From a virus: DNA of 32,088 nucleotides. A program made the translations under genes and the position numbers. The notes under the pieces are model-generated. The model ran no database searches and was not told the DNA's origin. It saw nothing but the letters and a program-made list of their open reading frames with translations. Location of the stretch: positions 1 to 32,088 of the IMG/VR virus record IMGVR_UViG_3300030085_001123; one strand, given 5' to 3'. How positions within the stretch are numbered: position 1 is the first letter of the stretch; each line of letters starts with the position of its first letter. Shown here in pieces: positions 4,963 through 30,500 of this stretch.

Positions 4963-5148
4963 ATGACTAACTACGCTACACTCTCCCGCCTTGATCTTGA
5001 GATTCTGGACACACAACAGAAAATCAAATATGTCCGTCTCCCTGCTTCTCGTCCTCGGAAATCTGATCTCTGGTTGACACAAACTAAAGGGATCAGGACT
5101 AACACTAATCGTGGCAAGATCAACACCAAACATGCTGATTTAGTCTAA
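4963..5148 (+). CDS. Conserved small basic protein (61 aa)
   Basis: 61-residue open frame from ATG at 4963. The frame is open further upstream (to 4834) but that part overlaps the conserved preceding gene and is hydrophobic noise. The N-terminal helix (LSRLDLEILDTQQKIKYVRL) is followed by a very basic tail (RPRKSD, RTNTNRGKINTKH) that could bind nucleic acid. It shares the transcription unit of the 4602 gene and is followed at once by a terminator. Function unknown. Confidence 0.65.
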   Translation: MTNYATLSRLDLEILDTQQKIKYVRLPASRPRKSDLWLTQTKGIRTNTNRGKINTKHADLV

Positions 5149-5158
5149 GACATGTGCA

Positions 5159-5187
5159 GGGGGAGTGCTTGACACTCTCTCTTTTTT
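5159..5187 (+). terminator. Rho-independent terminator
   Basis: Stem GGGGGAGTG (5159-5167) with CACTCTCTC (5173-5181), nine pairs including two G-T, loop of 5 bases, followed by six T (5182-5187). It ends the 4602-5148 unit. The -35 element of the next promoter lies inside it. Confidence 0.8.
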
Positions 5188-5197
5188 ATGGTATGAT
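5169..5197 (+). promoter_or_regulatory. Sigma-70 promoter embedded in a terminator
   Basis: TTGACA at 5169-5174, 17-base spacer, TATGAT at 5192-5197 (5 of 6). The -35 is formed by the terminator loop and right arm, and the T-tract forms the spacer. The expected start is near 5204. Confidence 0.7.
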
Positions 5198-5203
5198 AAG
5201 AGC

Positions 5204-5290
5204 AACTTAAGAGCAGTGATTTGCTCTGATATGTTGTAGCGTATTAAAACCGATGGGTCCTTCTAACCTACAACGGACCGAAAACGAGAG
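5204..5290 (+). ncRNA. Candidate structured RNA with hairpin and pseudoknot
   Basis: Starting at the predicted transcription start: hairpin AGAGCA (5210-5215) with TGCTCT (5222-5227); then GTTGTAG (5233-5239) with CTACAAC (5268-5274), a perfect 7-pair stem. GGTCC (5256-5260) in its loop is perfectly complementary to GGACC (5275-5279) immediately after it, giving either a pseudoknot or two alternative hairpins. No coding frame is present. It could be a riboswitch-like leader or a small RNA. No family was confirmed. Confidence 0.45.
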
Positions 5291-5508
5291 CTAAATATAA
5301 ACCTCATTTAAAAAAATTTCCAGTATAAAAAAATGCCCATAGGGTCCGACCCTCATAGACCCTCGGAGCATCCCCCTTAACAGATACTAATATTTGTGAT
5401 ATACTAGGAGAGTATACTATACAGGTAAATTACTCACAGCAATGATATTACCTAAGGTTAACCCATAGTGTTATCATCATTGTGAATACCTAGATACAAC
5501 ATAGCCGT
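5291..5508. other. Intergenic stretch before the 5509 gene
   Basis: No supported gene. It contains a CTAAATA at 5291-5297 matching the late-promoter core but with no gene in reach, A-rich runs, a cluster of AGGGTC/GACCCT arms at 5341-5372, and a TATACTA direct repeat (about 5400-5420) that could hold a -10 for the 5509 gene with only a weak TTGTGA (5394-5399) upstream. Confidence 0.4.
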
Positions 5509-5694
5509 ATGACTCTTATGAATGATCAAAAGTTTTACCATGTATATCTGAAAGATAAGGTCCTTTTTAAGAATCTCGATGAAGATGAGTTCAGAGTAGT
5601 TTGGGGCCGAATCTTTAAATCTTATTGGAAGGATGATTTATCTTACACTGTTTGTACTAATGATCTATGTGTTACTGAGGATCAGAGTTACTAA
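5509..5694 (+). CDS. Small acidic protein of unknown function (61 aa)
   Basis: 61-residue open frame, ATG at 5509 with a second in-frame ATG three codons later. The sequence FYHVYLKDKVLFKNLDEDEFRVVWGRI reads as a small alpha/beta protein resembling the HVY-x-KD-x-CLF-x-NL-x-EEEF pattern I recall from several phage small proteins (not confirmed). The C-terminal part has two Cys (CTNDLCV). No promoter is obvious. Function unknown. Confidence 0.65.
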   Translation: MTLMNDQKFYHVYLKDKVLFKNLDEDEFRVVWGRIFKSYWKDDLSYTVCTNDLCVTEDQSY

Positions 5695-7621: not shown

Positions 7622-8380
7622 ATGGCTAAAGGATTTACAGTAAAAGCAAATGCCCCCAAGGTCAAGAAAGTAGAAGACGACTTCGATCTTGAGGCGGCAA
7701 AAGAAATGGTAAAAGGTAAGGCAATCGTCTTCTGCCTACCTGGACGAGGAGTTTCATATATCTTCCTCAAAGCATTTGTCCAGTTGTGCTTTGATCTAGT
7801 ACAAACTGGTGCAAGTATTCAAATCTCCCAGGACTATAGTTCCATGGTTAACTTTGCACGATGCAAGGTACTTGGTGCTAACGTTCTACGTGGACCCGAT
7901 CAGGTGCCCTGGGATGGTAAACTGAAGTATGACTATCAACTCTGGATCGACTCTGACATCGTATTCGACACTGAGAAGTTCTATCGTCTTGTCTGGATGA
8001 ACAAGGAGATTGCAGCTGGTTGGTACATGACTGAAGATGGTAAGACCACTTCCGTTGCACACTGGTTGGAAGAAGAAGACTTCGCTAAGAATGGTGGCGT
8101 CATGAACCACGAAACTGGTGAGTCTATCTCTCGTCGTCGCAAGCCTTTCACCGTGGACTACACTGGTTTCGGTTGGCTTCTTATCAAACATGGTGTGTTT
8201 GAAGATCCCAAGATGAAGTATCCCTGGTTCGCTCCTAAGATGCAGGTATTTGAATCTGGTGATGTTCAGGATATGTGTGGAGAAGACGTTTCGTTCTGTC
8301 TCGATGCTAAGGAAGCGGGTTATGAGATCTGGTGTGATCCTAAGATCCGTGTTGGACACGAAAAGACTCGCGTAATCTGA
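7622..8380 (+). CDS. Glycosyltransferase-like protein, GT-A type (252 aa)
   Basis: Resembles small GT-A fold glycosyltransferases found in many cyanomyoviruses. A Gly-rich start CLPGRGVSYIFLKAF near residues 38-52 is followed by the DxD signature in YQLWIDSDIVF (D110 and D112) expected to hold the metal and nucleotide-sugar. GWYM near 133-136 follows, then CGEDVSFCLDAKEAGYEIW (GED as candidate catalytic base), then a C-terminal DPKIRVGHEK with His. No signal peptide or membrane segment, so it should act in the cytoplasm. Donor and acceptor are unknown; DNA bases, virion proteins or host glycans are all possible. It sits between the early-type genes and the late cluster. Confidence 0.75.
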   Translation: MAKGFTVKANAPKVKKVEDDFDLEAAKEMVKGKAIVFCLPGRGVSYIFLKAFVQLCFDLVQTGASIQISQDYSSMVNFARCKVLGANVLRGPDQVPWDGKLKYDYQLWIDSDIVFDTEKFYRLVWMNKEIAAGWYMTEDGKTTSVAHWLEEEDFAKNGGVMNHETGESISRRRKPFTVDYTGFGWLLIKHGVFEDPKMKYPWFAPKMQVFESGDVQDMCGEDVSFCLDAKEAGYEIWCDPKIRVGHEKTRVI

Positions 8381-11448: not shown

Positions 11449-14400
11449 ATGTCTGAAATCAAAAGGGTTAAAATATCTCACGTTATTGAGGGTCAGATTC
11501 CTGAGTTCCTAAATCAGGAGTCCCCTCTTTTTGAGCAGTTTCTTTTCCAATATTATCAGTCACAGGAACATCAATCAGGTTCTCTTGACTTAGCGAATAA
11601 TATTGCAGAATATCGAAAGATCACTGCATTTAATAATGAAACCCTAGTGCCTGCAACGGTTCTCACCGCAGAAATTTTTGGTGCGGATAGAGTCATTAAT
11701 GTAAACTCTACTGTTGGATGGCCTGACAATTATGGTCTCTTAAAAATTGATGAAGAGATTATTACATACACTAGTAAAACCGCAACTACTTTTGAGGGTT
11801 GTGCAAGAGGTTTTAGTGGTATTGATAAGATCTCTAAAGAAGATGCTGCTGAATTTCTAAACTTTTCTGAAACCTCTGCTACAAGTCACTTAGCTGGAGC
11901 AGTTGTACAGAACCTTAGTAATCTTTTCTTACAACAATTTTTTACCAAGTTTAAATCAGAATTCTTACCTGGCTTTGAAAACAGAAGTTTTGTTAGTGGA
12001 ACATCTGTTGCGAATGTATTAACTAGGGCAAAAGACTTTTATACCTCTAAGGGTACTGACGCTTCATATCAGATTCTTTTCAAACTTCTTTATGGTAAAG
12101 ATATTGAAATTATCAAACCCATTGAGAAGACTTTAGTTGCGTCTTCTAACGTTTACTTTAAAACAAAACACGTTCTAGTTGAAAACCTATTTGGTGGTGA
12201 TCCTACACAGACAGTTGGTAATCCACTACTACAAAATCTTCCTGGCATTGGAACAGTTAGTGCTTCGATCTATAACGTAGAGTACAGACCAGTTGGACAG
12301 AAAGATTTCTATGAAATTTCTCTAGACTCTACTTCATTTGATGGTTCTTTTGAAGTTCCTGGTAAAACAAAAACCTTAGAAGGAATTCCAGAGAAATCTG
12401 AAACAATTATTGTTGATTCTACAGTTGGATTTGGTAGAACTGGTAAGTTGTTGATTAAACCTAGAGAAGGTGCTAACTTTTTACTTGCAGAATACAAAGA
12501 TAAAACTTTAAACCAGTTTTTAGGGGTCACAGGTATTAACACTGACCTCAATTTTGGTGCCGACATCTTTGAAGATAAACTAGCATTTGCATATGCTGGT
12601 TTTGGGCAGACTTCATTGCTCCAAATGAGACTTGTCAACGTAATTGACAACGTTGATACTTCCGAAACTACAAATATGGAAGTCGGAGACAGCATGAAGC
12701 TGTACTCTTTTGGATTTGATCTACAAGATGATCCAAAATTCAATAGTTGGATCTACAACGTACCATCAACTCATAATTTAATATCCTCTCAACAGGTAAA
12801 CGTAAATTCATACAGACTTAGACTATATGATTCTGTTGTTTTCTACATTGGTGAGGAATTAACACTATCTGATGACTTAGGAAGTTCGGTAAGTGTAACT
12901 GTTAAAAACATTGAATACGATAGTGCCAATGTTCAGAAAAAATTATCGAATAGAATCGTAGTTCAAACAAATGGAGTTGCTCCAACACTTCCGACTAAGA
13001 TTCAAAAGAAGATTAGTAAGTCTTCACACAACTCAAATTACTTTGTTGGTGCAAATGCTTTCCCAGTAGGTATTCAGAACTCTTATTTGGACAATAATGA
13101 AGAGTTCTTCTATGTTGCTTCATCTGGTCTTCCAAACTATCCTATTTTTGCTACTGATAACAAGATTTTTGTAAAAACTTCTACTGTAGAAGTTACTGAT
13201 GGCACTGGTACACCTATTCTTGGTGGAGGATACACTTATACCGTAAGATCTCTAGATCCCCTTAACCAAACAACACCATTTAAGCACAATCTTGTAACTG
13301 GTGATAAGATTTATTGGGATAATACAACCTATAGTGGTATTCAAACTGGAGTATACTTTGTAACTAGTGTCAATGAGACTGAATTCCTACTCTCATACAG
13401 TGGTTCGGACGTATTTTCTAAAAAATATGTAGCAATTAGGACTAATACTTCTGGACAAGACATTTACAAGTCTGGATGGGAAAATAAAACTCTCAAAAAC
13501 CAAAAATTACTCAGAAAATTCACTTATACTCCAAAACGTGAATATTTTGATGATCCCAACAAGAGAACTATCAAAAATCGCCCAGTTGGGTTGCTTGCAA
13601 ATGGTGTAGAACTGTTTCCTGCTACTGTTCTTGATGAACAAATCCACTTTGGTGATATTGCAGACGTAAAAATCACCAATGCTGGTACAGGGTATGATGT
13701 TCTTAATGGACCTCCTCTACAAGTCTTCGATCAAACTGGTACGGGGTGTGTTGTACACGCAAACGTTGAAGGTTCTTTTGAAGAAGTAAAACTTATCTCC
13801 CCAGGTATTGGATATCAGGAAAAACCAAAGATTACTGTTACTGGTGGTAATGGTTCTGGTGCTGTTCTAGAATCAAACTTTGTTAAAGGTAGAATTATTG
13901 CCAATTTCAAGGCAGATGGTACATCTGTTAATGTTTTCTCCGATACTATTGATTTTGAGAATAAGCATAACTTTGAATTGGGAGAAGGAGTTGTTTACGA
14001 CTCTAAGGGTAACCCAAATATCGGAAATATTGTAAGTGGTGCAACATATTTTGTTGGGCCAGTTTCCGATAAGATCATTAAACTCTATACTGACCCTAAA
14101 GATGCAATTTCTGGAATTAACACCGTAAATATTGGTGGTGTTAGTTATGGATTCCATAGCTTGTCTACGGTTGAGTCCAAAAATACAATTACAAAGATTT
14201 ACGTAAAAAATAAAGGATCGGGATACTCCAATAAGAAAATTTTATTCCCTGCAAGAAAAGATACTGAATCTATTCGATCTGGAGTAAGTACATCTGATAA
14301 TTTTATCTTTGCTAAGGACCATAATTTTAAAGATGGTGAAATTGTTCAATATGAAACGGATGGAACATCTATTACTGGTCTATCTACAACAACTCAGTAT

Positions 14401-17400
14401 TTCGTTAAGATCATTGATAGTGATAGATTTAGATTATGTGATGCTGGAGTAGGAACTAATAGAACATTCGATAATTATGAGAAAAATAGATTCAGTATTC
14501 TAAAGAGTGTTGGTACTGGAAAGCATTGCATTAAATATCCACCCATCGTAGTTTCTGTTGAGTCTATTTCTGCTATTGGTGCAACTACAGTTGTAAAACC
14601 AGAAATTTCATCGGATATTCTAGGATCTATTACTAGTGTCTACCTTGAAGAGGGTGGAATTGGTTACGGTTGTACTAACATTCTAGATTTCCACAGAAGA
14701 CCTGATGTTGGTGTATCTTCAACAAGATTCCAAGCATTATTACAACCAATTATTATTGGTGGATCTATTGTTGATGTCCAGATTCTTGCATCTGGTGATG
14801 GATTTAGAGTCGATTCCGATATTATCATCAATAGTCCAACAGGTGCTTTTGCTGACATCAAACCAATAGTCAGTAATGGTAAAATTACTGGAGTAAGTGT
14901 TCTTGATGGTGGTGTAGGTTATGCTGCTAGTGATACCACACTGTTCTTAAGAAATAGAGGTAGAGACGCTAAGTTTATTGCTAATGTCCGTGAGTGGAAA
15001 ATTAACCAAGTAGTTAAAAATGAAAATATTATTGATCCTGCTGATTCTCTTTTAATTAAACCTAGTACAAACCCAGAGTATCAGTTACAAACATACTCAA
15101 TGTATCCACCTAACCAATTGAGATATCAGTTGGGTGACAATATTGATTCTGGCAATTTAGAACTATCGGCAAATGCTACCCACTCACCGATTCTAGGTTT
15201 TGCTTATGATGGTAACCCCATATATGGTCCTTATGGGTTCTCAGAATCGACTGGAGGACCTGTTGTACGTCTTAAGAGTGGATATATCCTCGATACCACA
15301 AACAAGGTCGGTTTAAGACCTCCTGGCTTCCAGTTAGGATATTTTGTAAATGACTTTAAGTTTGATAATTCTGGTGATCTTGATGAATATGGCGGTAGGA
15401 ATTGTGTAACTCCACAATTCCCAGATGGAACATATGCATACTTCTATAGTATTGACGTTGACTCTAGTGGAGTTGCTGATCCTAAGTTCCCATACATTTT
15501 GGGTAGTAGTTTTAGAGATACTCCTATTGAAGAGAACTTCGTAACCTTCTTCAATCAAGACGTAGATATTGTTTCTAGAAACTTAACTAGAAACATTGGT
15601 CCTTATTATCTTTCTGCTGGAAATTCAAAATACGAACTGATCGATAGAGTTGAAGATTCTTACAAACAAGAATTTAGTGTAACTAAAGTTAAAACAGCAG
15701 GAATTACTTCTGTTAGTGTTTTTGCCAGGGGTTCTGGATATAAAGTTGATGATAATCTAAACTTAGATAATACGGGAACTGATGGAACTGGAGCAAATAT
15801 TGTTGTTGGATCCGTTCTTGGAGCAGAAGTAAACACAATCAAGATTGGTGTTAGCACTCTCACTGATGTTGACTTGAGATTAGTTAATAATAAAATTATT
15901 GGTGTAACAACAGTTCCCCATGAGTTCTCTGATGGTGAAACAATTATTCTTTCTGGTATTTCTACTTCCGAATTTACTCAGTTTAACGGAGAGCAGAAAA
16001 TCAAGGTAAAGACAAGAACAACAGGTCTAAATGTTGAACTTGCTGATGTTGGTGCTACTGGTATTACCACATATATTTCAGTTACAGATACTAGAGACTT
16101 TGTAGCTGGTGACGTAATTGGTATTGGTACTGAGACTCTTACTATTTTGAATGTAGATAGTGAGTTTGGTAGATTTAGAGTCAACAGAGAATACTATGTT
16201 GGTATTGGTATCACACATGCTGTTGGAACTAATAATGTATTCTTAAAACCAAATAAATTTGAATTGGTTGAAGATAAGGACATTAAATTGTCCTATTTGA
16301 CATATACCAATCAAATGTTCTTCTTTGATCCTAGCTTTACTGTAGGTATGGGATCTACTGGAACACATTATGATATCTCTCTGACTGGTTTAGGTCTTTC
16401 TGCGGCTAATGAAACGATTGAAAATAGATTCGTACCACAAAGACAGTTATACATTCCTAACCATAAGTTCTACACTGGTCAAAGTCTTGTATATCACATG
16501 GGTGTTGGTGGAACATCACTAACATATGCTAAGACTGCTGTTGGATCAACTTCTGGAGTTGGTACAGAAAGACTTGAGAGTGGGGAAACCTACTATGCAG
16601 TAAACTTTGGTAATGATTACCTTGGTATATCTACAGTTGGATTCCCAACTGCTGCTGATGCTGTTTGGTGGTATAATGTTGCAAGTAATATTGGTGCAGC
16701 TCACTCAATAGCAACTAATTTCCCGAAAGTAACTGCTGTTGCTGAGAAATACTTTGGTCAAGTTACTACTAAGACAAATCATAATCTTTCAACCAAAGAT
16801 GAGATTAAATTAACTGCTATTCCAACTCAGACAGAGACAGTGGAGTTGAGATTTGATCCAGTTATTGCTAAAGTTACTACTAAGAAAGTTGCTTTTGATC
16901 AAACTTCATTTACTGCTGATCTAACTGGTTTTAAAATTAATGATACTAGTTACAATACAGGTGATAAGGTTGTTTTCTATGTTGATAATACAAACATTAC
17001 TGGATTAGTTCATAATGAAACTTATTTTGTATTGAGAGAATCTCCAGAGTACATCAAACTCTGTAAACACAAAGCAGATGTTGATAGTGGTACTATCGTC
17101 AACATTACCAATGTACCTACAGGTAATTATTACTTAGCAAGAGTAAATCCACCATTTGATTTTGTTAGAGGTGATAGAGTTACATTTGATGTTTCTGATG
17201 TAAGTCTCAGAAACATGGAACTTAGGTTCTTTGAAGATATTGATTTTGTAAAAGATATTGAGACCTCTGGAAATGTTAATCAGGGATTTAATATCAAGAG
17301 AAATGGAGCTACTGGTAATACTGGTGCTACAGTTGAAATTACTACTTCAACCGATTTCCCAAGAAAGTGCTATTATCAGGTAATTCCTGTTGTACCTTCT

Positions 17401-20400
17401 GATGAAAGAAAACTGAATATTTCTTCAGATAAGGAAGTAAAAGGAAGAAATAATATAACTCTGAATAAGATTGTTCTCGATAATGAGCATACTATCGTAA
17501 AAGTTGATGATACCACTTTTAATTTCAATTTGAAGAGTAAACCATCTGAACCTCAGATGTTTGTATCGTTGGCTGGTGTTTCTACAATCACTTATGAGAC
17601 TAGTTCTCGTAGTGCAGTTGGTCCTATTGCTAAACTTAAAGTCAACTTCCCAGGAAAAGGATATAGGAGACTTCCTAGAGTAGTTGATTTCGATACTGCG
17701 GCTGGTGTAGATGGTGTTGCCAAAATCTTCTCCGAAGAAGTTGGTGAGATTGATACTCTGGAGAGAGTGAAAGATGGATTCGATTATCCTACCGATCCCA
17801 CACTATTACCATTCCTAAATGTTCCTGCAATTGTAGATGTAAACGGAATTGCAAGAATTGATGAAGTCAGAGTTACTGACGGAGGTAAGAATTACACACA
17901 ACCACCAAATCTGGCGATTCGTGGAAATGATACTGCTAAACTTGCTGCTCATGTAAGTGGTGGATCTGTATCTAGAGTTGATGTTGTTGCAAATGCATTT
18001 GAATTCTACGAACCATTGAGCATTATTACTACAAATAATTCCAATGGTTATGACATTGACCAAATTACACATAGTGGTACAGATGTAACTGTTGAATTGT
18101 TACTTGATCCTCAGTTCAATATTCCCATTAGAACTGGATATGGATCTACCGATATTGAATTACCTTTTGCTATTGGCGACAGAGTGTTTATTGAAGGGTG
18201 TAGATTAAAACCAGATTCTTTTGCCGCAGGTGAACAGAACTTTAACTCCGATCTTTACGACTATAATTTCTTTACTGTAACTGGTGTAAACACTGCAAAC
18301 TTTACAGTTACTTACAGTATGGCTAATGCTCCTGGCATTACTACTGCTCCTTTGGGTTCATATGATGATGATTTTACCTTAGGATACATTGTCAACTACA
18401 ATGACATGGCTAAGTTTAGCATGAAGTTGATTGATGATGCTAAGTATCTTTCTGGTGAGAAAGTAACTTCAAATAAATTTGAAGGATATGTTGCAGAAAA
18501 TGGTTGGAATGGTGAGATTAGTCAACTTAGACTCAGAGATACTATTGGTACATTGAGAGAAGGTGATACTTTGGTTGGCGAAGTATCTGAACTGAAGGGT
18601 AACGTCAGATATGTAAGTAGGTTTAGTGTTAAAACTAGATTGGGAGTAACTAGAGATAAAATTGAAAAGAATGATCTAGAAACTGGTATTCTTAATGATT
18701 TCAGTCAAAGAATATCTGACAACTTCTACTACCAGAAGTTCTCTTATTCAGTTAAGAGTAATCTTGATTATAATACTTGGAAAGAATCCGTAAGATCTAT
18801 CTTACACCCATCTGGATTCAGAGAGTTCTCCGACTTCCAGCTAGAGAGTGATCCTAAGAAAGATGCTGAGACTTTTGATTTAGTAAGTGTTGGTGTTGCC
18901 AAGTCTACCAACATGGCAGTTAAACCAGTCGATACAAAGGTCGATCTTATTGTCAATGTTGACAATGAAATCTACATGGGAACCAGAGAAAACTTTGCTA
19001 TGGTTACTGAAGATGATGCATTGACTGATGGAACCGTTCAGAGAATATTCTTCCCAGAAGGTAGACCTATTAAGAGTTACATTCTTAATAAGACAAACAA
19101 AGTTCTGAATATTGATGATATTTCTACAGGATTCAATGGTGCTCATGATAGAACTGGTACTCTTGTAGGTTCGACTCAATTTAAGTTGAAGTCTAAAGGA
19201 AGTCCTATCTTTAGAGTGTCCTTTGCTTCTTCTAATCCAAATGTAGTTGATCTAACTAATAATATTATTAATCTACCTAATCATAACTTCCAAACTGGTC
19301 AAGAGTTGATCTATGACAAACAAGGAGGAGATGGTATTGGTATTGGTACTACAGATCAAATTGTTGGTACAAAAGATATCATTATGACCGCAGTCACCTC
19401 TGGTGTTGGTGGCAGTGCAATGTTTGAGAATGGATATAACGTTGAAATTCCTGAGGGTGGAGTTACTGGTACTTCATTGACATCTGGATTCCCAATCGTC
19501 ACCTTTAAGGTGTTTGGTTTTGGAATGGCTGAGGGTGGTATCCCAGGCATCTCCACTAGGGGTACTGGTGCTAGATTCCAAGTTAAATTTACATATGATG
19601 GTCAAGGATCTACCCTTTCTACTAATGTAGTTTTAACCAAGGGTGGTAATGGATACTTTGTTGGAGATACTGTAAGTATTGGTGGTACTTGGTTGGGAGG
19701 TGCGTCTCCTGCTAATGACTTATCATTCCCTGTTACTAGGGTTACTGGTACACGCACAGGTATTCAGTCAACGTATACTAATGTTCCATCAACAAATAAT
19801 AATGCTGGAACTGGTGCTATTTTCAATATCACTAGAGATTCCAACTTAGATGTTGTTGACGTTGAAGTTGTTCAGGGTGGAAGTGGTTATGCACATACTG
19901 ATGTTATTTCCATTGCAGGTACATATATTGGAGGAGCTACACCTACTGATGATATTTTCCTAACACCAATTCAATTGGGTGGCACAACAATGCCAGATTT
20001 GGTTTATGTAAATAAGGTAGATGACTTTAACTTTAAACTTTGTGGTATTCCTACAGGACTTCCACTTAACTTTACGGGATTTGGAACAGGCAATCACGTT
20101 CTAAGATATTCCAATCCCAATTTGAATGCTCTGATTATGATTGATAATATCATTCAGACACCAATTAAAAATAAAAAACTGAGTATTGGTATTGGATCTA
20201 ACTTGGGTCCAAGTGACCAGAGTATTTCTATTACCTCTGGTATTGGTTCAATTGCTAAGAATGACATCATCAAGATTGATGATGAGATGGTGAAGGTCAA
20301 ATCTATTGGTGACACTACATTTGTCCAATCTAGATTTGCAATCGCAGAAACTACAGTTGATAATAATTTCTATTATGACGTGAAGAGAATGAATTCCGAT

Positions 20401-20454
20401 GTAACTACGGTTGACGATACATTCCCAACTCACGATGACAACCCTCCATATTAA
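11449..20454 (+). CDS. 7: Enlarged baseplate wedge protein, gp7-like (3001 aa)
   Basis: 3001 residues, compared with about 1030 in T4 gp7. The N-terminus (PEFLNQESPLFEQFLFQYYQ, residues about 16-35) and the segment AKDFYTSKGTDASYQILFKL at about 194-213 resemble T4 gp7's central region. A second T4-like block, SVKSNLDYNTWKESVRSILH, lies near residues 2434-2453 and is followed by PSGF. Between them lie about 2,200 residues of repeats. HxFxTGxxVxY...YFV modules occur near residues 612, 839, 957, 1671, 1828 and 2611. At least eleven GGxGY-type turns and a YHYH-like domain (about 1240-1360) are also present. Predicted wedge initiator linking tail tube and outer baseplate. Starts directly after gp6 with no gap. 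Confidence 0.8.
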   Translation: MSEIKRVKISHVIEGQIPEFLNQESPLFEQFLFQYYQSQEHQSGSLDLANNIAEYRKITAFNNETLVPATVLTAEIFGADRVINVNSTVGWPDNYGLLKIDEEIITYTSKTATTFEGCARGFSGIDKISKEDAAEFLNFSETSATSHLAGAVVQNLSNLFLQQFFTKFKSEFLPGFENRSFVSGTSVANVLTRAKDFYTSKGTDASYQILFKLLYGKDIEIIKPIEKTLVASSNVYFKTKHVLVENLFGGDPTQTVGNPLLQNLPGIGTVSASIYNVEYRPVGQKDFYEISLDSTSFDGSFEVPGKTKTLEGIPEKSETIIVDSTVGFGRTGKLLIKPREGANFLLAEYKDKTLNQFLGVTGINTDLNFGADIFEDKLAFAYAGFGQTSLLQMRLVNVIDNVDTSETTNMEVGDSMKLYSFGFDLQDDPKFNSWIYNVPSTHNLISSQQVNVNSYRLRLYDSVVFYIGEELTLSDDLGSSVSVTVKNIEYDSANVQKKLSNRIVVQTNGVAPTLPTKIQKKISKSSHNSNYFVGANAFPVGIQNSYLDNNEEFFYVASSGLPNYPIFATDNKIFVKTSTVEVTDGTGTPILGGGYTYTVRSLDPLNQTTPFKHNLVTGDKIYWDNTTYSGIQTGVYFVTSVNETEFLLSYSGSDVFSKKYVAIRTNTSGQDIYKSGWENKTLKNQKLLRKFTYTPKREYFDDPNKRTIKNRPVGLLANGVELFPATVLDEQIHFGDIADVKITNAGTGYDVLNGPPLQVFDQTGTGCVVHANVEGSFEEVKLISPGIGYQEKPKITVTGGNGSGAVLESNFVKGRIIANFKADGTSVNVFSDTIDFENKHNFELGEGVVYDSKGNPNIGNIVSGATYFVGPVSDKIIKLYTDPKDAISGINTVNIGGVSYGFHSLSTVESKNTITKIYVKNKGSGYSNKKILFPARKDTESIRSGVSTSDNFIFAKDHNFKDGEIVQYETDGTSITGLSTTTQYFVKIIDSDRFRLCDAGVGTNRTFDNYEKNRFSILKSVGTGKHCIKYPPIVVSVESISAIGATTVVKPEISSDILGSITSVYLEEGGIGYGCTNILDFHRRPDVGVSSTRFQALLQPIIIGGSIVDVQILASGDGFRVDSDIIINSPTGAFADIKPIVSNGKITGVSVLDGGVGYAASDTTLFLRNRGRDAKFIANVREWKINQVVKNENIIDPADSLLIKPSTNPEYQLQTYSMYPPNQLRYQLGDNIDSGNLELSANATHSPILGFAYDGNPIYGPYGFSESTGGPVVRLKSGYILDTTNKVGLRPPGFQLGYFVNDFKFDNSGDLDEYGGRNCVTPQFPDGTYAYFYSIDVDSSGVADPKFPYILGSSFRDTPIEENFVTFFNQDVDIVSRNLTRNIGPYYLSAGNSKYELIDRVEDSYKQEFSVTKVKTAGITSVSVFARGSGYKVDDNLNLDNTGTDGTGANIVVGSVLGAEVNTIKIGVSTLTDVDLRLVNNKIIGVTTVPHEFSDGETIILSGISTSEFTQFNGEQKIKVKTRTTGLNVELADVGATGITTYISVTDTRDFVAGDVIGIGTETLTILNVDSEFGRFRVNREYYVGIGITHAVGTNNVFLKPNKFELVEDKDIKLSYLTYTNQMFFFDPSFTVGMGSTGTHYDISLTGLGLSAANETIENRFVPQRQLYIPNHKFYTGQSLVYHMGVGGTSLTYAKTAVGSTSGVGTERLESGETYYAVNFGNDYLGISTVGFPTAADAVWWYNVASNIGAAHSIATNFPKVTAVAEKYFGQVTTKTNHNLSTKDEIKLTAIPTQTETVELRFDPVIAKVTTKKVAFDQTSFTADLTGFKINDTSYNTGDKVVFYVDNTNITGLVHNETYFVLRESPEYIKLCKHKADVDSGTIVNITNVPTGNYYLARVNPPFDFVRGDRVTFDVSDVSLRNMELRFFEDIDFVKDIETSGNVNQGFNIKRNGATGNTGATVEITTSTDFPRKCYYQVIPVVPSDERKLNISSDKEVKGRNNITLNKIVLDNEHTIVKVDDTTFNFNLKSKPSEPQMFVSLAGVSTITYETSSRSAVGPIAKLKVNFPGKGYRRLPRVVDFDTAAGVDGVAKIFSEEVGEIDTLERVKDGFDYPTDPTLLPFLNVPAIVDVNGIARIDEVRVTDGGKNYTQPPNLAIRGNDTAKLAAHVSGGSVSRVDVVANAFEFYEPLSIITTNNSNGYDIDQITHSGTDVTVELLLDPQFNIPIRTGYGSTDIELPFAIGDRVFIEGCRLKPDSFAAGEQNFNSDLYDYNFFTVTGVNTANFTVTYSMANAPGITTAPLGSYDDDFTLGYIVNYNDMAKFSMKLIDDAKYLSGEKVTSNKFEGYVAENGWNGEISQLRLRDTIGTLREGDTLVGEVSELKGNVRYVSRFSVKTRLGVTRDKIEKNDLETGILNDFSQRISDNFYYQKFSYSVKSNLDYNTWKESVRSILHPSGFREFSDFQLESDPKKDAETFDLVSVGVAKSTNMAVKPVDTKVDLIVNVDNEIYMGTRENFAMVTEDDALTDGTVQRIFFPEGRPIKSYILNKTNKVLNIDDISTGFNGAHDRTGTLVGSTQFKLKSKGSPIFRVSFASSNPNVVDLTNNIINLPNHNFQTGQELIYDKQGGDGIGIGTTDQIVGTKDIIMTAVTSGVGGSAMFENGYNVEIPEGGVTGTSLTSGFPIVTFKVFGFGMAEGGIPGISTRGTGARFQVKFTYDGQGSTLSTNVVLTKGGNGYFVGDTVSIGGTWLGGASPANDLSFPVTRVTGTRTGIQSTYTNVPSTNNNAGTGAIFNITRDSNLDVVDVEVVQGGSGYAHTDVISIAGTYIGGATPTDDIFLTPIQLGGTTMPDLVYVNKVDDFNFKLCGIPTGLPLNFTGFGTGNHVLRYSNPNLNALIMIDNIIQTPIKNKKLSIGIGSNLGPSDQSISITSGIGSIAKNDIIKIDDEMVKVKSIGDTTFVQSRFAIAETTVDNNFYYDVKRMNSDVTTVDDTFPTHDDNPPY
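15172..15510 (+). other. YHYH-like domain within gp7
   Basis: Residues about 1240-1360 read SPILGFAYDGNPIYGPYGF, later LRPPGFQLGYF, DLDEYGGRNCVTPQFPDGTY and YFYSIDVD with YILG. This closely follows the YHYH protein family (Pfam PF14240) pattern of SP-x-GYAxDGxPIYGPY then LDE-x-NGR-x-CVTPE-x-P-GTYAY. The His-rich motif that named the family is replaced by FYS here. From memory of the family; no search was run. Confidence 0.65.
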
Positions 20455-21522: not shown

Positions 21523-24500
21523 ATGCCAAGGACTACACCTGGATCAGGAGCTCTTCTAAGACCATTCTTCACTTCCAATTACGGCGTTCATAGAATTGAA
21601 GTGTTGAGTGGAGGCAGTGGTTACGCAAAGACTGACCCACCAAAAATCGAGATCGACGGTACTGTAACACCTACAACAGAAGGTGTTTTTTATCCAATTA
21701 TCAAAAACAATAGTCAAGGCATTGGAACAATTGCCTCGGTTAGAGTTTTTGTTCCTGGTGTTGGATATTACCCCGTCTTCAGTACTACTACTGCTGCAGA
21801 TGTGGTGGTGGAAAGAGGTGCTTTTGGATCTATTGCAACAGATCACACCGCTACAGTTGGAGTACACTCTGTATTTACAGGGGACTATAATATTGTAGAT
21901 GATGATATTTTCTTCACTGATGCTCCTTATGGCAAACAAGGTCCAGTAGGTCTTTTAACTGGATCTACTTTTTCTGGAAGATTGTTCTCTAGAAAGTTAG
22001 ACCCATATGTACCAAAAGATAAGAACCTAGTCCTTGATGACATTTCTCTAGAGTTTACTGGAATTGCTGGTACTCAATTTGAGTTATCTGAAAACCTAGG
22101 AATTGTTACTGCACTTTATAATAACGTAAACTTGGGTGTTGATATTAACAATAACCCATTTGTTCTAATCAACAACATTGTTCAAACTCCTGGTTTGGAT
22201 TTTGAAATTGTAGGAACTGACAGTAATAAAATTAATTTTTTAAGTGGTGTACCTAGAGCTGGTAGAATTGTAAAAGTTGGTCTTGAAACGGGTTCTGGAT
22301 ATTATACTCCATTAAAAGCATCTGCTGTTGCTGGAATTGGAACAACTGGTGCTTTAGAAATTGCCAAACTAACTGGAAGAGGTCAAGGATATAGAACTCC
22401 TCCAGAAATCACTGTGAGATCTTCTGTTGGTTTTGGCGCAAGTGTTGTTGCTGTTCTTGGAACGAACGAAGGAACTACAATCGGTATTACCACAGCACAA
22501 TACAATATGTTTACTGGAATTGCTACATTCCAGACAAACGGTGCTCATGGATTTGCTAAGGATGAAAGAGTAAGAATTACTGGAGCTGGATTTACATTCA
22601 GTCCATTATCTCCTAACAGAAATATCAATACCTTTGGGTATGATTACATTACTGGCATTGCAACGGTAAATGTTACTGGTGGTCACTATATTGGAACGGG
22701 TACAAATTCCAATAAACATCTTCTAGTTACTCAAGTACAAGTTTCTGATGGTATTAGTACATATACTTTCAGGGAAGATGCATATCCTATTGTTGATGTA
22801 TCTGGTCCAAATGACGTAAACATTGATGTTGGTGTTGGTACACAGCCACTAACTTATGTAAGTGGTGGTCTTGTTCGTGCTGGTGTTGATACAAATATTC
22901 TTGAAGCTGTAAATGAAGTTGGATTTGATATTCTAGGTGTCACTACGAATACTTTCAGAGTCTTTGTTGGTGTTAGTACCTTTAATCATGATTATGTTAC
23001 TGGTGGTGTAGTAGAAAGAACTCAGGCTGGTATTGTTACTGCACTGAATATTGTTTCTGGTGGTCAAGATTACTTTACAACTAAGAAAGTTGCATGGATT
23101 GAAAATACTCCCTCAGATGGTATTACAACTGTAACTATTCATGGTAAAAAACTTAGTGATTCTCTTGGAATTGCTAATGTTTACTATACTGCTTCTACTG
23201 GTATTGCAACCATTCAAGCACAAGCAAATCATGGAATGTCGGTTAATGATGTTGTAAAATTAACTGGAATTGGATTTAGTACACCAGCTGGAAATATTAC
23301 TTTACCTCCAGAAGGTAAAAATCAATTCTTTGCAGTCAAGTCAACTCCAAGTACGATTGATTACACTGTAGATCTTGGCATTCGTTCTGGAATCCATACC
23401 CATCAGGCTGTTGGAATGGGTTCTTACATTAAGTATGAAAATCATGGTTTAGTAACTGACGATTTTGTAACAGTGACTGGAATTGCTGTTACTTTTGCAA
23501 GTGCTCCTGGTGTTGAAATTACCAACGTTGTTTATGACAACACCTCTGGTATTGCTACCTTTACTACAAAGAATAGTCACAATCTTGATTTGGATGATTG
23601 TGTTGTATTGAGTGGAATTGCATTTACTTGTGATTATTCTCCATCTTTAGGAATTAGTACCGTTGCATATGATAATACAACGGGTGTAATGACCGTTACT
23701 ACAGCTGCTCCTCATGGATATACCGTTGGTGGAAAAGCTGGAACAGTAGTATTGACTGGATTAGGGTTTACATGTCAATTAGACAATGGTGCTAGAACCC
23801 ATTATTACCCAAGAAGAAGATCTTCTACATTTGACACGTCAGTACCTATTGTTTCCGTAGGTGCTACAACAATTACAGTTGATGTTGGGTATGCTGGAGC
23901 AAGAGATCAGTATCCACACACCTTTGTAACCGCAGAAACTGGTGCAGTAATCACTGGAGGTGCATATGATCATACGTTTGTACGGTCTGTAGAGGGTGCA
24001 TTACGTAATGGAGGTGATTTCCCCCATGCCTTCGTCACATCGATCTCTGAATCGATTTTCAGTGGAGGTAACTATGCACACACATATACCGAATCATCAG
24101 AAGAAGCAATAATTGTTGGTGGTGGATATAATCATACTTTTGTTTCTCCAGCTGATGATGATTGTATTAACGTAGTTGGTGGTGGTACTACTACACCTAC
24201 ACATGCTGACTATAATCCAAATTCTGGAGATCTTACTTTAACAGTTGTTGGTCATGGTCTTAGTGGTCCCACACAACATACTGTAACTGATGCAGAATAT
24301 ACACCAAATACTGGTAAATTAACATTAACCCTTCCTACTCACGGATTCTTGGTTGGTGATTCTGTTAGAATTGCACAAGGTGGAATCACTTTCACTTGTG
24401 CTATGGATAATCATGCCACAAACCATCCATATCCTCGTGCAAATGATCCTGCAAATGGTCAGTGGTTGGGAATTGCTGCTACAACAACGAATACATTTGA

Positions 24501-27500
24501 TGTTTATGTTGGTGTTACTAGCACAAAATACTTCGATGTAAGTGGAGCAGATTATACTCCTTCTACTGGTATCATGACCATGACCGTTGGTCCTCATGAA
24601 TTACCAACTGGTACAAGTATTAAGATTGCTGCAAATTCCCTCACATTTAGTTGTGGTCTTGATCAATATGGTTCAAATAAGACCTATCCACGTACAACAG
24701 ACCCAGCATATGAGTCTGCACTATCAATTGTGGGTGTTGGATCTACTACATTCTCAGTAAACGTAGGACCAAGTACAATTGTTCCTTTTGATGTTGCTTT
24801 TGCACATTATACCCCAACCACGGGTATTATGACTTGTGCATTGACTGTCATCCATGGTCTACAAGTTGGCCAGAGTATTCGCATTAAGAATGAATCTCTT
24901 GGATTCAAGTGTAACAAAAATGCATATACAACAACTCACTTCTATCCAAGACCTTCTGACCCATATTACAACACTGCTGTTCCTATTGTAGGTGCTGCAG
25001 GAACTCTACTTACTCTACAAGTTGGTCCAAGTACATCTTGGGATTACACTCACGCTTTTGTTCCTAACCTAGGTAGTGCAGTCGGATCTATCATCTCTGG
25101 TGGTGATTATCCATATCAATTTGTTAGCGCTGCTTCTAGTGCTGTTATTACTGGTGGTAATTATAACCATGACTTTGTTTCTGCCACTCCTAACGGATTG
25201 GAAAGAACTGTACAAAGAATTGGAATTGCCACAGGATCTCTATCATTTAAATGTGCTAAGGACGGATACGCAACTGTCCACGACTATCCACGTACTACTG
25301 ACCCTGCTCATAATGCTGAGTTGGGAATTACCAGTGTAACTGCTGATACTCTGTCAGTCAGGGTTGGTGTATCGACATATGCAGTTCGTCAAGCAACTGG
25401 TGCAACATATGATCCTTCTACTGGAGAAATGGTTGTTACCGTTGGTGTTGGACATAGTTATTATGCACAGTCTGGACACACAATTACAACTGCAACTTAT
25501 AATCAATCAGCTGGTGTACTTGAGGTTACCGTTCCTAATCATGGTTTCTTGAACGGTGAGTATGTCAAGTTTGATGATGGATCAATTACATTCTCTTGTG
25601 ATAAGGACAATTATGGTAGTAACCATGCATATCCTAGAGCATCGGATCCATATAGAAACAAGTGGTTACCTGTATATCATGTAGGTGTTAACACATTCTC
25701 AGTATTTGTGGGTGTTGGTTCTACAAACAACTACATCTTCCAATCTGCAACTACAAACGGACTTAAGAAAGCTGCATACACTGTTGGTGTAGGAACTGGT
25801 TCTTATACGTTTACTTGTGCTAGAGATAATCATGCCACTAAACATGCTTATCCTCGTATGGATGATCCTGCTCATAATGCAGTTTTGGGTATTGGATCTA
25901 CTAGTGCAAATACCATTACTTTACAAGTTGGTGTAACAACACAAGTAACTAATGCAATTACAACCGCAACCTATGTTCCATCAACAGGTGATCTTGTAAT
26001 TACTTCTCCAGATCACGGATATAGTGGTGTTCAAACTTACACGCCAAATCTCGTCACATATAATCCTAGTACTGGAGTACTAAGACTAACCTTAGATAAT
26101 AACCATGGTTGGCAAGTTGGTGAAAGAGTGAAACTATTAGATGACTCACTAGTATTCAAGTGTGATCTTGATGGAAGAGCTACCGAACACACATATCCTA
26201 GAGGAACCGATCCAATTTCTGATAAGTGGGTTCCTATTGTGGGAACAGGAACTAATTTCTTTGATATTAATGTTGGTACAAGTCTGACTACTTTCTATTC
26301 CCCAACTTCAGGATCTTTTGATCCTGTAACTGGATTAATGACAGTTGGATTTGGAACAGCACACAACCTCAGAAAAGGACAGTCTGTAAGACTTAAGACT
26401 AGAGGATTTAAGTTTACTTGTGGCATGGATAATCATGCAACTAATCACTACTATCCTAGAGCTACTGGACTGACTGGACCAGATCCAGCTTACAACACTG
26501 CGGTTAAGATTACATCTACTACAGAACAGACCATCACATTAGATGTTGGAACGTCTTCTAACCAATCAGATCATATCTTTGTAGCTGCTGCTACTAGTTC
26601 TATTATCGCTGGTGGAGAATACACTCATGTATTTGTGAGAGCTGATCAAGGATGTTTACAAAAATCTGAAAATACCATTGGTATTGCAACTAATGGATTG
26701 ACTTGGAGATGTGCTCAGGACAATTATGCTACTGACCACACATATCCACGTACAACTGATCCAGTACACGGAGAAGAAATTGGAGTTGTCACCACAACAC
26801 AAAATACCTTCACTGTAAATGTTGGTGTAACAACTATTCAGAGACTAAACGTTTCTGATGCTACATACGATCCATCAACAGGAGTCGTTGTACTTACAAC
26901 TGACACTGCTCATGGATTGACAACTGTCCAAGGTGGTGTTGGTATTGCTACAAATTCTCTAATTTATACCTGCACAATGGACCAGAATGCATCTGAGCAT
27001 TCATATCCACGTACAACTGATCCAGCACACAATGCAAGGTTGTCAATCGCTGCTACAACATCCAATACATTGACAGTTAATGTTGGAACTTCTACCGCAG
27101 TTCCATATGATGTAGCTGGTGCAGATTACAACTCAGTTGTAGGTATCATGACCCTTGCAATTGGATCTCATAGTCTACTTGCTAATACTAACTTTAAGTT
27201 TAGAAATGAAGGGTTAATATTCACCTGCACTAAAGATGGTAATACACAACAACATGGATATCCTAAGGATGGTGATCCATATTTCGGTGGGGTTGAAATT
27301 ACTAGAGTTATTAACAATACTACTATTGAAACTAACGTTGGAGTAACAACTGTTCCTAGTTACTATGTTGGTGGAGGAACAATTCAGGGTGCTATCATTG
27401 CTCCTAGATTTAACAATAATTCTGCAAGTGGTGAAGATTATGCTGCAAGTGGAACTTTTGTAGATAAGGTCATTTCTAACAGAGAATTCGTTGCTAACGT

Positions 27501-30500
27501 TGGTATTGCAACTTGTCAACACTTCTACAATAGAATTGGTACTGCATTTAAAGGCAAGAGACTCGCTTCTTCTATTGAAGAAGGATATTCTGGATTTGAT
27601 GTTCTTGAAGCACTTGATGGTGCAAACATTAGAGTTAATGCAGGATTTACAACAGAGAACTTCTATTACACTGGTGGTGGTTCTGTAGGTAAACCAATTT
27701 TCCTAGATTTTGTTGAACCAGATCCTTATTACAATCTACCACTAAACTATATTGATGGTACTACTGGAATTGGTACTAATGCTACTGTTGATTTACGAGT
27801 TAATGTTGATGGCGACATTAGAGAGTTTAATCTAACCGAAGAGGGTATTGCATATAAAGTTGAAGACTCTCTAACGGTTGCTGGAATTGTAACAGATCCA
27901 AGAGTTGGTATTCTTACTGAATTTAGACTTAATGTTACTGAACTTGATAATGATAAGTTCTCTGGATTCTATCCTGGACAATTCATCCTCTTTGATGATA
28001 TTTCTAAATTCTTCAATAGCAATAGAAGGAAGTTTACTCTCTCTGTTACTACTGGAGGAACTACCGAGATTCTAAGTCTCAAGACTCTTGCAGGTAGTGA
28101 TATGGATATTACTAATAATATCTTTATCTACATTAATGATATCCTTCAAACACCAGGCACTTCTTACATTTTCAAAGGTAGTAGAGTTATCTTTAGTGAA
28201 GCTCCTAAGAGCAACTCTAAGTGTTCTGTTTTCTACTATAGAGGATCTGCCAGAGACGTAGAGACTATTGAACCTCCATTAACCGTAAAAGCTGGAGATA
28301 CTGTTCAAATCAAAGAGAATAAAGAAAATATCTTTGACATTGATCAGTTTGAAAGAACTGGAAAACGTATTGTTGCTTCTGATGTTCTAGAAACATTCGC
28401 TTACAACAGTATTGGTATTGATACAAATCCAGTTGCAGAGAGACCTCTGATGTGGGAAAAACAGAAGGTAGATAGAGTTCTATCTGGTGTTTTAGTTCCA
28501 AAAGCTAGACCAAGTTTGAAGAGTAGAGTAACTCCAGCTACTAGACTTATTCACAAGGTAGATCAACAGGATGGATTCATTAGAGTTCAGAATGCTTTCC
28601 CATTATTCTCAGAAATTGACCTTGTAACTCAGGCAGAAAGAAATGCTCAAATCTTTGAGGATGAAGAAATTACTCCTGGTATCGTTACATCTATTGTCTC
28701 TACTGCGTCCAGTATCAGTGATATTGTAATCGTTGATGGTGGTAGTGGATATAAGAACATTGTTAACCCTACAGTGAACATCTCTGCCTCTGGTATTACC
28801 AGACCAGATCCAATTAAGGATTGGAGATTTGATGGAATTAGTGGTGTAACTAATGTTGTTGATTTTAAAGCACTGACCGATCAAGAACCAATCGTTGCTG
28901 TTGGTGGTAGTAGTCAGTATATTAATACTAAGAGTGGAAGTTTCTGGGAAAGAGGAACTATTGGATTTGGTGGAACAGTACAGTTCCATTGTGTAGGCGT
29001 TGGACAGTCTTCTGGATATCCAACTAAGTATGTTGTTGCGGGTGGTGAGTATGGTAGTTTGGCTAGAGCTGCTGGTTTTGGTAACAGTTTGACTTCATTC
29101 TCCGAAATCGAACTTAGAGAACTGAGACAAATCCCTGCTCTTAACTTGACTGTTGAGTATCCAAGTACGTTTGAAGAAACTTTCAACGATGTTATCTATG
29201 AACCAGTTGTAGATACTTGGGTTGCAGTTGGTGCTGGTGGATCTGTATTTACTGCGGTTGGTGTTACTAGTGACGTATTCTTCAGTAACTATCCAAACAC
29301 AGTTCAAGATCTCAACTCTGTAGTCTATGCACAAGGTGAATTTATTGCTGTTGGTAATGGTGGTGAAATTGTCGCCTCTAATGACGGTAAAGTTTGGTCA
29401 CCAAAAGCAAGTAATACTCCATACAACTTGAGAGATATTATTTACGACGGTAACAGATTTATTGTTGTTGGTGATAATGGAACAATCGGTGTTTCCTCTG
29501 ATAAGAATTATTGGGAACCTTGGAGTACTCAACAGTACAACAACGCTATTCACCCAGCTACTTTTGACTTTAAAGTTCTTAAATATATTGACAATCTCTA
29601 CATCGGTATTAGTACCATCGGTGTTCTCTACTATTCCTTTGATCTAATCAATTGGAACCGTAGAGACGTACCTCACACTAATGAGATTAGAGATATTGTT
29701 GCCACCAATTTTGGTCCAAGTAGAGGACAAAGAATTATTTCAGTTGGATCTGGAACGACACAGTTCTATGCAGACCCAGTTATTAATAGAGCAACTGCTA
29801 CTGCATCCGTCACCAATGGAATTGTTACAAGTGTCACTATCACTGATGGCGGATTTGGTTATGAGTATGGTTCTTCTCCATCTGTTATTATTGAATCTGA
29901 TGTTCCTAAGAAGGAAGAGATTCTTTCTTTCAGAACCGAAGGTGATTTTGGTGTAATTGTTGGTGTAAATACTTGGATGCCTGGAATTGGATTCAGTGTT
30001 CCACCTAGACTTCAATTTACACTTAAGTCTGAATTTAATGATAATACTAACCTTGGTTATGGATATTCTTCACTGAATACCCTTGGAGTCAACTATTCTG
30101 GACTACAAAAAGACGATTATTTCGTTATCTACGATAGTCCACTGGTTGTTGGTCATGCTTTAACTGGAATTACTACCTCTATTGGTGGATATGCAAACTA
30201 TCCTGCAAATAAAGTTGGTATTATTTCTGCTGGTGAGAATCTAGAAGGTGTATTCAGAGTTGAGAGAGTTACTACTGGAGATGCGGTTTCTGGTCTTGTA
30301 ACTGTCACATGTGCTTTCCAGCCAGGTCCAAATAACAACAGTGATATTCAAGTTGGTGTTGGTACAACGGCCACTATTGATACTTACTGGGGTAAATATA
30401 GTTGGGGTAAGATCTTCGGATATCAAAATAGAGGAGCAGGTACTCCTCAAGCATTTGATGTCAATGTTGATGCTGGAATGGTCGGTTTATCGACCGCTGC

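Follow-up and report, generated by a model that had tools for sequence, protein, structure and literature searches.

What is the role of the DNA that separates two small genes, ending at 5148 and beginning at 5509, in a viral genome from IMG/VR (record IMGVR_UViG_3300030085_001123, positions 1 to 32,088, the 32,088 nucleotides analysed being referred to here as the window)? An earlier note, made from the sequence of the window, had proposed that a promoter built into a terminator is followed here by a possible pseudoknot RNA, which could be a small RNA or a riboswitch-like leader for the gene at 5509. Comparison with related genomes upholds the first part of this proposal, argues against the second, and points to conserved features that are collected in Table 1.

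Table 1. Features of the locus, in window coordinates
Feature	Position	Strand	Basis
61-aa gene that closes the hyperplastic stretch	4963-5148	+	Homologue of Sf-FS3 SfFS3_71
Predicted intrinsic terminator: 10-bp stem (5158-5182), 5-nt loop, then T-tract	5158-5188	+	Folding
Predicted early sigma-70 promoter: TTGACA (5169-5174), 17-nt spacer, TGn-TATGAT (5192-5197)	5169-5197	+	Consensus match, relatives
Short hairpin with recurrent RRCAGT motif (AGAGCAGTGATTTGCTCT)	5210-5227	+	Folding, relatives
TATA-like AT box before core (window TATTAAAAC; family GTATATAAAAAC)	5242-5250	+	Conservation in 140 loci
Conserved core, consensus CCCTAAnCTAyAAnCGaaCCcAAAtCGmGAG	5261-5290	+	Alignment of relatives
CTAAATAT, resembling a T4-like late promoter	5291-5298	+	Comparison
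AT-rich tract past core: A-tract/T-tract (AAAAAAATTT) with a further TATA-like box (TATAAAAAAA)	5310-5333	+	Conservation, composition
First downstream gene, 61 aa, phrog_2626 (E 7e-21), unknown function	5509-5694	+	Other family in most relatives

The note's statement that no gene lies within 200 bases was mistaken, in that the product of ORF 4963-5148 is 63% identical over 59 aa to SfFS3_71 of Sf-FS3 (E 5e-24), and its stop codon is separated by 9 nt from the terminator hairpin; the downstream gene is 218 nt away. The stem-loop, AGGGGGAGTG-CTTGA-CACTCTCTCT, with T-rich DNA 3' of it, has a calculated energy of -13.1 kcal/mol (z -4.3), equalled by 0/200 shuffled sequences, and the combination expected of an intrinsic terminator, i.e. 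a GC-containing hairpin and a T-run after a gene end, is found at 5158-5188. The hairpin is the natural terminator of gene 4963-5148. The promoter scores 11/12 against the sigma-70 hexamers, a TGn extension precedes its -10, and the arrangement (TTGACA-N17-TATAAT-like) is above chance for its position. Its -35 is formed by part of the terminator loop together with the start of the right arm, and the T-tract lies inside its spacer; the -35, the spacer holding the T-tract and the TATGAT were all confirmed as the earlier note had described them, and their overlap with the terminator exceeds chance, both locally and by comparison with relatives. We infer a transcription start at about 5204, and the hairpin foreseen in the predicted transcript is present, with 7 pairs including one G-U. 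Further downstream, immediately past the conserved element, there is an inverted repeat (ATGCCCATAGGGTC/GACCCTCGGAGCAT, 5333-5371) with GGGTCC/GACCC repeats, then a second promoter-like site, TTAACA-N17-TATACT (5377-5405; 10/12, TGn), the regional number of such sites being at chance level, and, between that site and gene 5509, an imperfect inverted repeat (TACTCACAGCAATGATA/TATCATCATTGTGAATA, 5431-5488).

The superposition of promoter and terminator recurs in relatives. Sigma-70 promoters scoring at least 10/12, often with perfect hexamers and an extended -10, were observed 23 times at 100-125 nt upstream of the core, compared with 0.45 expected; an early promoter was detected in 47/130 loci, and terminator-like hairpins occur upstream of the core in 41%, compared with 7%. 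A strong hairpin encloses the -35 in 46% of 46 relatives' promoters and in 1.3% of shuffled controls. The enclosing stems vary in sequence yet stay self-complementary across relatives, e.g. GGCCACAG/CTGTGGCC in S-B05, and AACCCCC/GGGGGTT, GGGGCA/TGCCCC, CAGAGGG/CCCTCTG and ACTGCCCC/GGGGCAGT in others, and such compensating changes support a terminator-promoter unit, not a pseudoknot. In the genomes as a whole the same overlap occurs a few times on the + strand (19, that of the window included, compared with about 5 expected); each genome has no more than 1-6 promoters enclosed in a hairpin, and their stems are unlike. The core is no different in the S-SSM7 group, although a terminator lies directly 5' of it there and no early promoter scoring at least 10/12 turned up within 250 nt. 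Judged by these comparisons, the predicted terminator with its superimposed promoter is a real feature, recurrent in relatives, and its closest counterpart is in Sf-FS3, which infects WH8102.

The RNA part of the proposal rested on two interleaved helices, GTTGTAG (5233-5239)/CTACAAC (5268-5274; P1) and GGTCC (5256-5260)/GGACC (5275-5279; P2), and both are indeed perfectly complementary in the window. Among 140 non-redundant loci, however, the window is alone in forming all 7 pairs of P1 (the other 139 form 0-5) and all 5 of P2, and complementarity in any register is near the level of shuffled sequences (29% compared with 22% for P1, 6% compared with 8% for P2). The arms do not covary across homologues, the outcome that the earlier note itself had taken as decisive against a pseudoknot or alternating RNA, which is left unsupported. 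Mutual information among the loci gave neighbour-type signals and no pair-type signals, RNAalifold found no consensus RNA structure for 81 loci, and within the element (140 loci) the type of the upstream sub-block is not linked to that of the downstream one. Folding of the window gave z -2.2 for 5204-5290 and z -1.2 for each of 5204-5340 and 5230-5285, and that of the core z of about -0.2 on both strands, no better than shuffles. The suggested comparison with Rfam returned no family at gathering score for the window or 15 relatives, and only chance-level matches for the window at a relaxed threshold. A riboswitch-like leader for the gene at 5509 is likewise unsupported in the form proposed, since many relatives have the element in front of a different gene. 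Two other readings were rejected, i.e. a helix GTTAGCG/CGCTAAC that is present in some loci and missing from most, and a coding role for the core (xLTYNEPKSR frame), which is interrupted by stops in relatives and by a 2-nt indel in P-TIM40.

What the relatives share is a non-coding element spanning 5240-5330 in the window, the core of which harbours the 3' arms of the supposed helices. Its strongest stretch is CCCTAAnCTAyAA (5261-5273), with a weaker patch extending to 5290 in which G 5286 is almost invariant; across the 140 non-redundant loci AAA (5247-5249) of the AT box is nearly invariant, and ATA at 5295-5297 and the A-tract/T-tract at 5310-5318 are conserved. The GC content is 67% in the 15 nt before the AT box and 25-29% past the core. 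Since about half of the 140 loci were selected via the core sequence, its conservation there is partly forced; the same TAAnCTAyAA backbone is seen in a sample assembled via a downstream protein, from which loci were picked either with a pattern of that same shape or with a profile. Sites for NtcA (GTAN8TAC) and Pho boxes (CTTAN7CTTA) were not seen in the core by eye.

The box adjoining the core resembles the T4-like late promoter, TATAAATA, which in S-PM2 is NATAAATA (PMC2984593). A TAAATA-type box comparable with it stands at a fixed distance past the core in both the window and S-PM2 (GATAAATA at the position equivalent to CTAAATAT); most relatives have a degenerate box or none, with TAWATA at this spacing (+27) in 40/140 and TAAATA in 20/140. 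We know of no conserved 30-bp block upstream of T4 late promoters. In S-SSM7, the 8-mers TACATAAC (7 copies) and GCCCTATA/CCCTATAA (6 copies) share with the late-type ACTAAATA (10 copies) a nearly exclusive location between genes, and these 8-mers may be further promoter motifs.

The element is widespread. BLASTN found similar DNA in S-SSM7/S-SSM6a and Sf-FS3, a consensus query added P-TIM40, S-SCSM2R and a marine single-cell virus, and the 15-mer AACCTACAACGRACC matched more than 100 IMG/VR contigs, mostly with the same flanks. Because the 15-mer sample was selected by motif, a second was assembled from 80 loci fetched by the downstream protein of about 252 aa (phrog_1574, window 7622-8380). 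The element is present in at least 63 of these 80, in most cases 300-560 nt ahead of the phrog_1574 gene, among them variants beyond the reach of the 15-mer (CTAATCTATAACGACCC, CTAAGCTATAAACGACCC, CTAATCTATAAAGTGTTACG and CTAACCTACAAAACTTTGA); many of the loci in which it is missing have little upstream sequence. Profile searches located the element in P-SSM2, S-SRM01, S-T4, DSL-LC02, Sf-CH5, S-PM2, S-SM2, Bellamy, S-CAM9, S-B05, S-SCSM1, P-TIM68 and Syn9, so that 18 named T4-like cyanophages carry it; ACG-2014f has a weak, sub-threshold profile match in the right gap, and S-CAM7 has no profile match in the stretch examined. A host origin of the sequence was rejected, the only hit being a Prochlorococcus single-cell contig that is probably phage DNA. 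Whole-genome profile scans gave one significant copy in each of five complete genomes (Syn9, S-PM2, S-CAM9, S-SSM7 and S-SCSM2R), at 25.1 kb in S-PM2 and 53.5 kb in Syn9; in P-SSM2 the element is at 69.1 kb. As far as such searches can recognise it, nearly all T4-like ocean cyanophages examined carry the element, in single copy. No description of the core was found in Rfam or by a motif text search, mostly of literature outside subscription, and the element is, provisionally, apparently undescribed.

In the named phages the element is always intergenic, upstream of gp25 and on the same strand, and adjoins the hyperplastic region at its right edge, shortly ahead of the tail genes, with the baseplate module downstream. 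Upstream of it is a variable region of small ORFs, in which assembled contigs tend to break; downstream, the conserved order is small genes, phrog_1574 (73/82 loci), gp25 (60) and gp6 (58). In the window the phrog_2626 gene is followed by two 2OG-Fe(II) oxygenase genes. In 35 of the examined sequences, isolates included, the first gene past the element encodes an AbrB/MazE-like DNA-binding protein of about 55-66 aa (phrog_661, best E 2e-14; Pfam MazE_antitoxin at 9e-5, slightly short of the cut-off), e.g. P-SSM2 PSSM2_102 and S-SRM01 QPX48150.1, which PHROGs labels 'unknown function'; no obvious toxin partner adjoins it. That the element is the operator of this neighbour was considered and rejected, the gene being missing from this position in the window, S-SSM7 and others, and AbrB subtype and core subtype being unlinked by eye.

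In S-SCSM2R (PQ898602.1) the annotated CDS SSCSM2R_94 (54785-55003), probably called as a gene in error, covers the whole element (54817-54902), and in P-SSM2 (AY939844.2, 68263-69222) 959 bases without annotated genes, containing the element, terminator-like hairpins and short ORF-like stretches, precede the first gene past it. Downstream of gp6 the window has two ORFs of about 3000 aa each (11449-20454 and 21523-30531), at a position occupied in S-PM2 by a single 9-kb gene for a virion structural protein.

These observations may best be accommodated, in our estimation with about even confidence, if the element is a non-coding, single-copy transcription boundary and control region of T4-like cyanophages that acts at the DNA level. 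From sequence and comparison, the intrinsic terminator would end the last transcript of the hyperplastic gene region, and a strong host-type early promoter, presumably active, would be superimposed on it in many genomes, the window included; with the -35 in the hairpin loop or arm and the T-tract in the spacer, a single unit may thus stop upstream transcription and restart it downstream. A protein of the phage or of its host would then bind the core of about 30 bp, some 60-90 nt past the start, in double-stranded form and so control the genes that follow (small genes, then phrog_1574 and the baseplate module with gp25 and gp6); the adjacent TAAATA, similar to a late promoter, may contribute. 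A pseudoknot would have no part in this mechanism. A site acting as DNA is favoured because structure and covariation are missing, because the element is non-coding, and because the core is unchanged in the S-SSM7 group, where no early promoter was seen. Several points weaken the proposal. The operators of regulators are usually present in multiple copies per genome, so that a single copy counts against it, as do the degeneracy of the late-type box in most relatives, the detection of the promoter in only 47 of the 130 loci, and the fact that the candidate binder phrog_661 is not beside the element in the window, S-SSM7 and others.

Single copy at one locus throughout the group would fit a replication origin, in which an early transcript enters the AT-rich tract and primes replication, the core being an initiator-binding or unwinding site; on our analysis this is unlikely. 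In T4, oriF and oriG consist of a promoter and then an unwinding element, and early transcription primes replication. Here too a promoter is followed by an AT-rich tract, with a sharp shift from GC-rich sequence to the low GC content past the core; the likeness is one of sequence. The element differs in that the conserved core has no T4 counterpart and the promoter was not seen in all genomes, with only a terminator found ahead of the core in the S-SSM7 group. For Syn9, a single origin of the theta type has been predicted (PMC2984593), and resequencing of S-PM2 gave a 2-3-fold rise in read density just downstream of the ORFanage, read by its authors as terminal redundancy (PMC4503421); both are consistent with an origin, though neither is tied to the coordinates of the element. 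Against it, GC skew reaches no extremum at the element in any of five genomes, a weak test for phages that replicate by recombination. A wider version, which we regard as similarly doubtful, is that the element is a conserved single origin, or another initiation site of replication or packaging, fed by the terminator-fused promoter and with core sub-blocks matched to a genome-specific initiator. A precise packaging end was rejected, since contig ends scatter from <0.1 kb to several kb upstream and do not fall on one base.

Strong early promoters 100-125 nt upstream of the core in a large minority of loci might instead serve a small RNA or untranslated leader, the conserved single-stranded core of which binds a protein or base-pairs with a target in the host or the phage, and the core, which is strand-asymmetric, C-rich, little structured and in single copy, is like possible seed regions of small RNAs. 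This too seems improbable, given that there is no covarying structure, no Rfam match and no consistent 3' terminator past the core, and that in the S-SSM7 group the terminator separates upstream transcription from the core. The wcaG, manA and PhotoRC-II motifs of Rfam are likewise non-coding elements of marine T4-like phages (PMC2864571); the present element differs from them in having neither a match at gathering score nor a conserved structure.

The PeSL (promoter-early stem-loop) cassettes of T4-type phages (Arbiol 2010; Comeau 2014) are, in the summary given in PMC4503421, dense sequences that mediate shuffling. Compared with that summarised description, the locus is similar in having a stem-loop terminator and an early promoter, intergenic and in or at hyperplastic regions. 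It differs in that the hairpin encloses the -35 and the promoter spacer contains the T-tract, and in that the core is single-copy and stems are unlike between sites, where PeSLs have many near-identical copies; lacking this repetition, the element is not classed as a PeSL on the description summarised. A recombination anchor, i.e. a shared right border for swapping hyperplastic gene blocks as proposed for PeSL cassettes, would suit its position at the right edge of a variable region in which contigs tend to break, and the free combination of its sub-blocks. Recombination on its own leaves unexplained, however, the point-by-point conservation of about 30 bp in genomes otherwise unalignable here, and the genome has no second copy as a recombination partner, so that we consider it very unlikely. 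Hardly credible is a pseudoknot, alternating RNA or riboswitch-like leader, since the two perfect complementary pairs of the window have no complete counterpart of either helix elsewhere among the 140 relatives, whose arm types show no covariation; on this comparative evidence the proposed pseudoknot is a coincidence of one genome.

T4-like cyanophages are among the most abundant ocean viruses, yet only a small number of cis-acting signals have been described for them. With a landmark present once per genome at the border of the gene-swapping region and the tail module, there would be a fixed reference from which to map early and late transcription, to test the single origin predicted for Syn9 and to study exchange in the hyperplastic region. 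The overlap of the -35 with the terminator loop may represent a compact stop-and-restart unit, which is directly testable.
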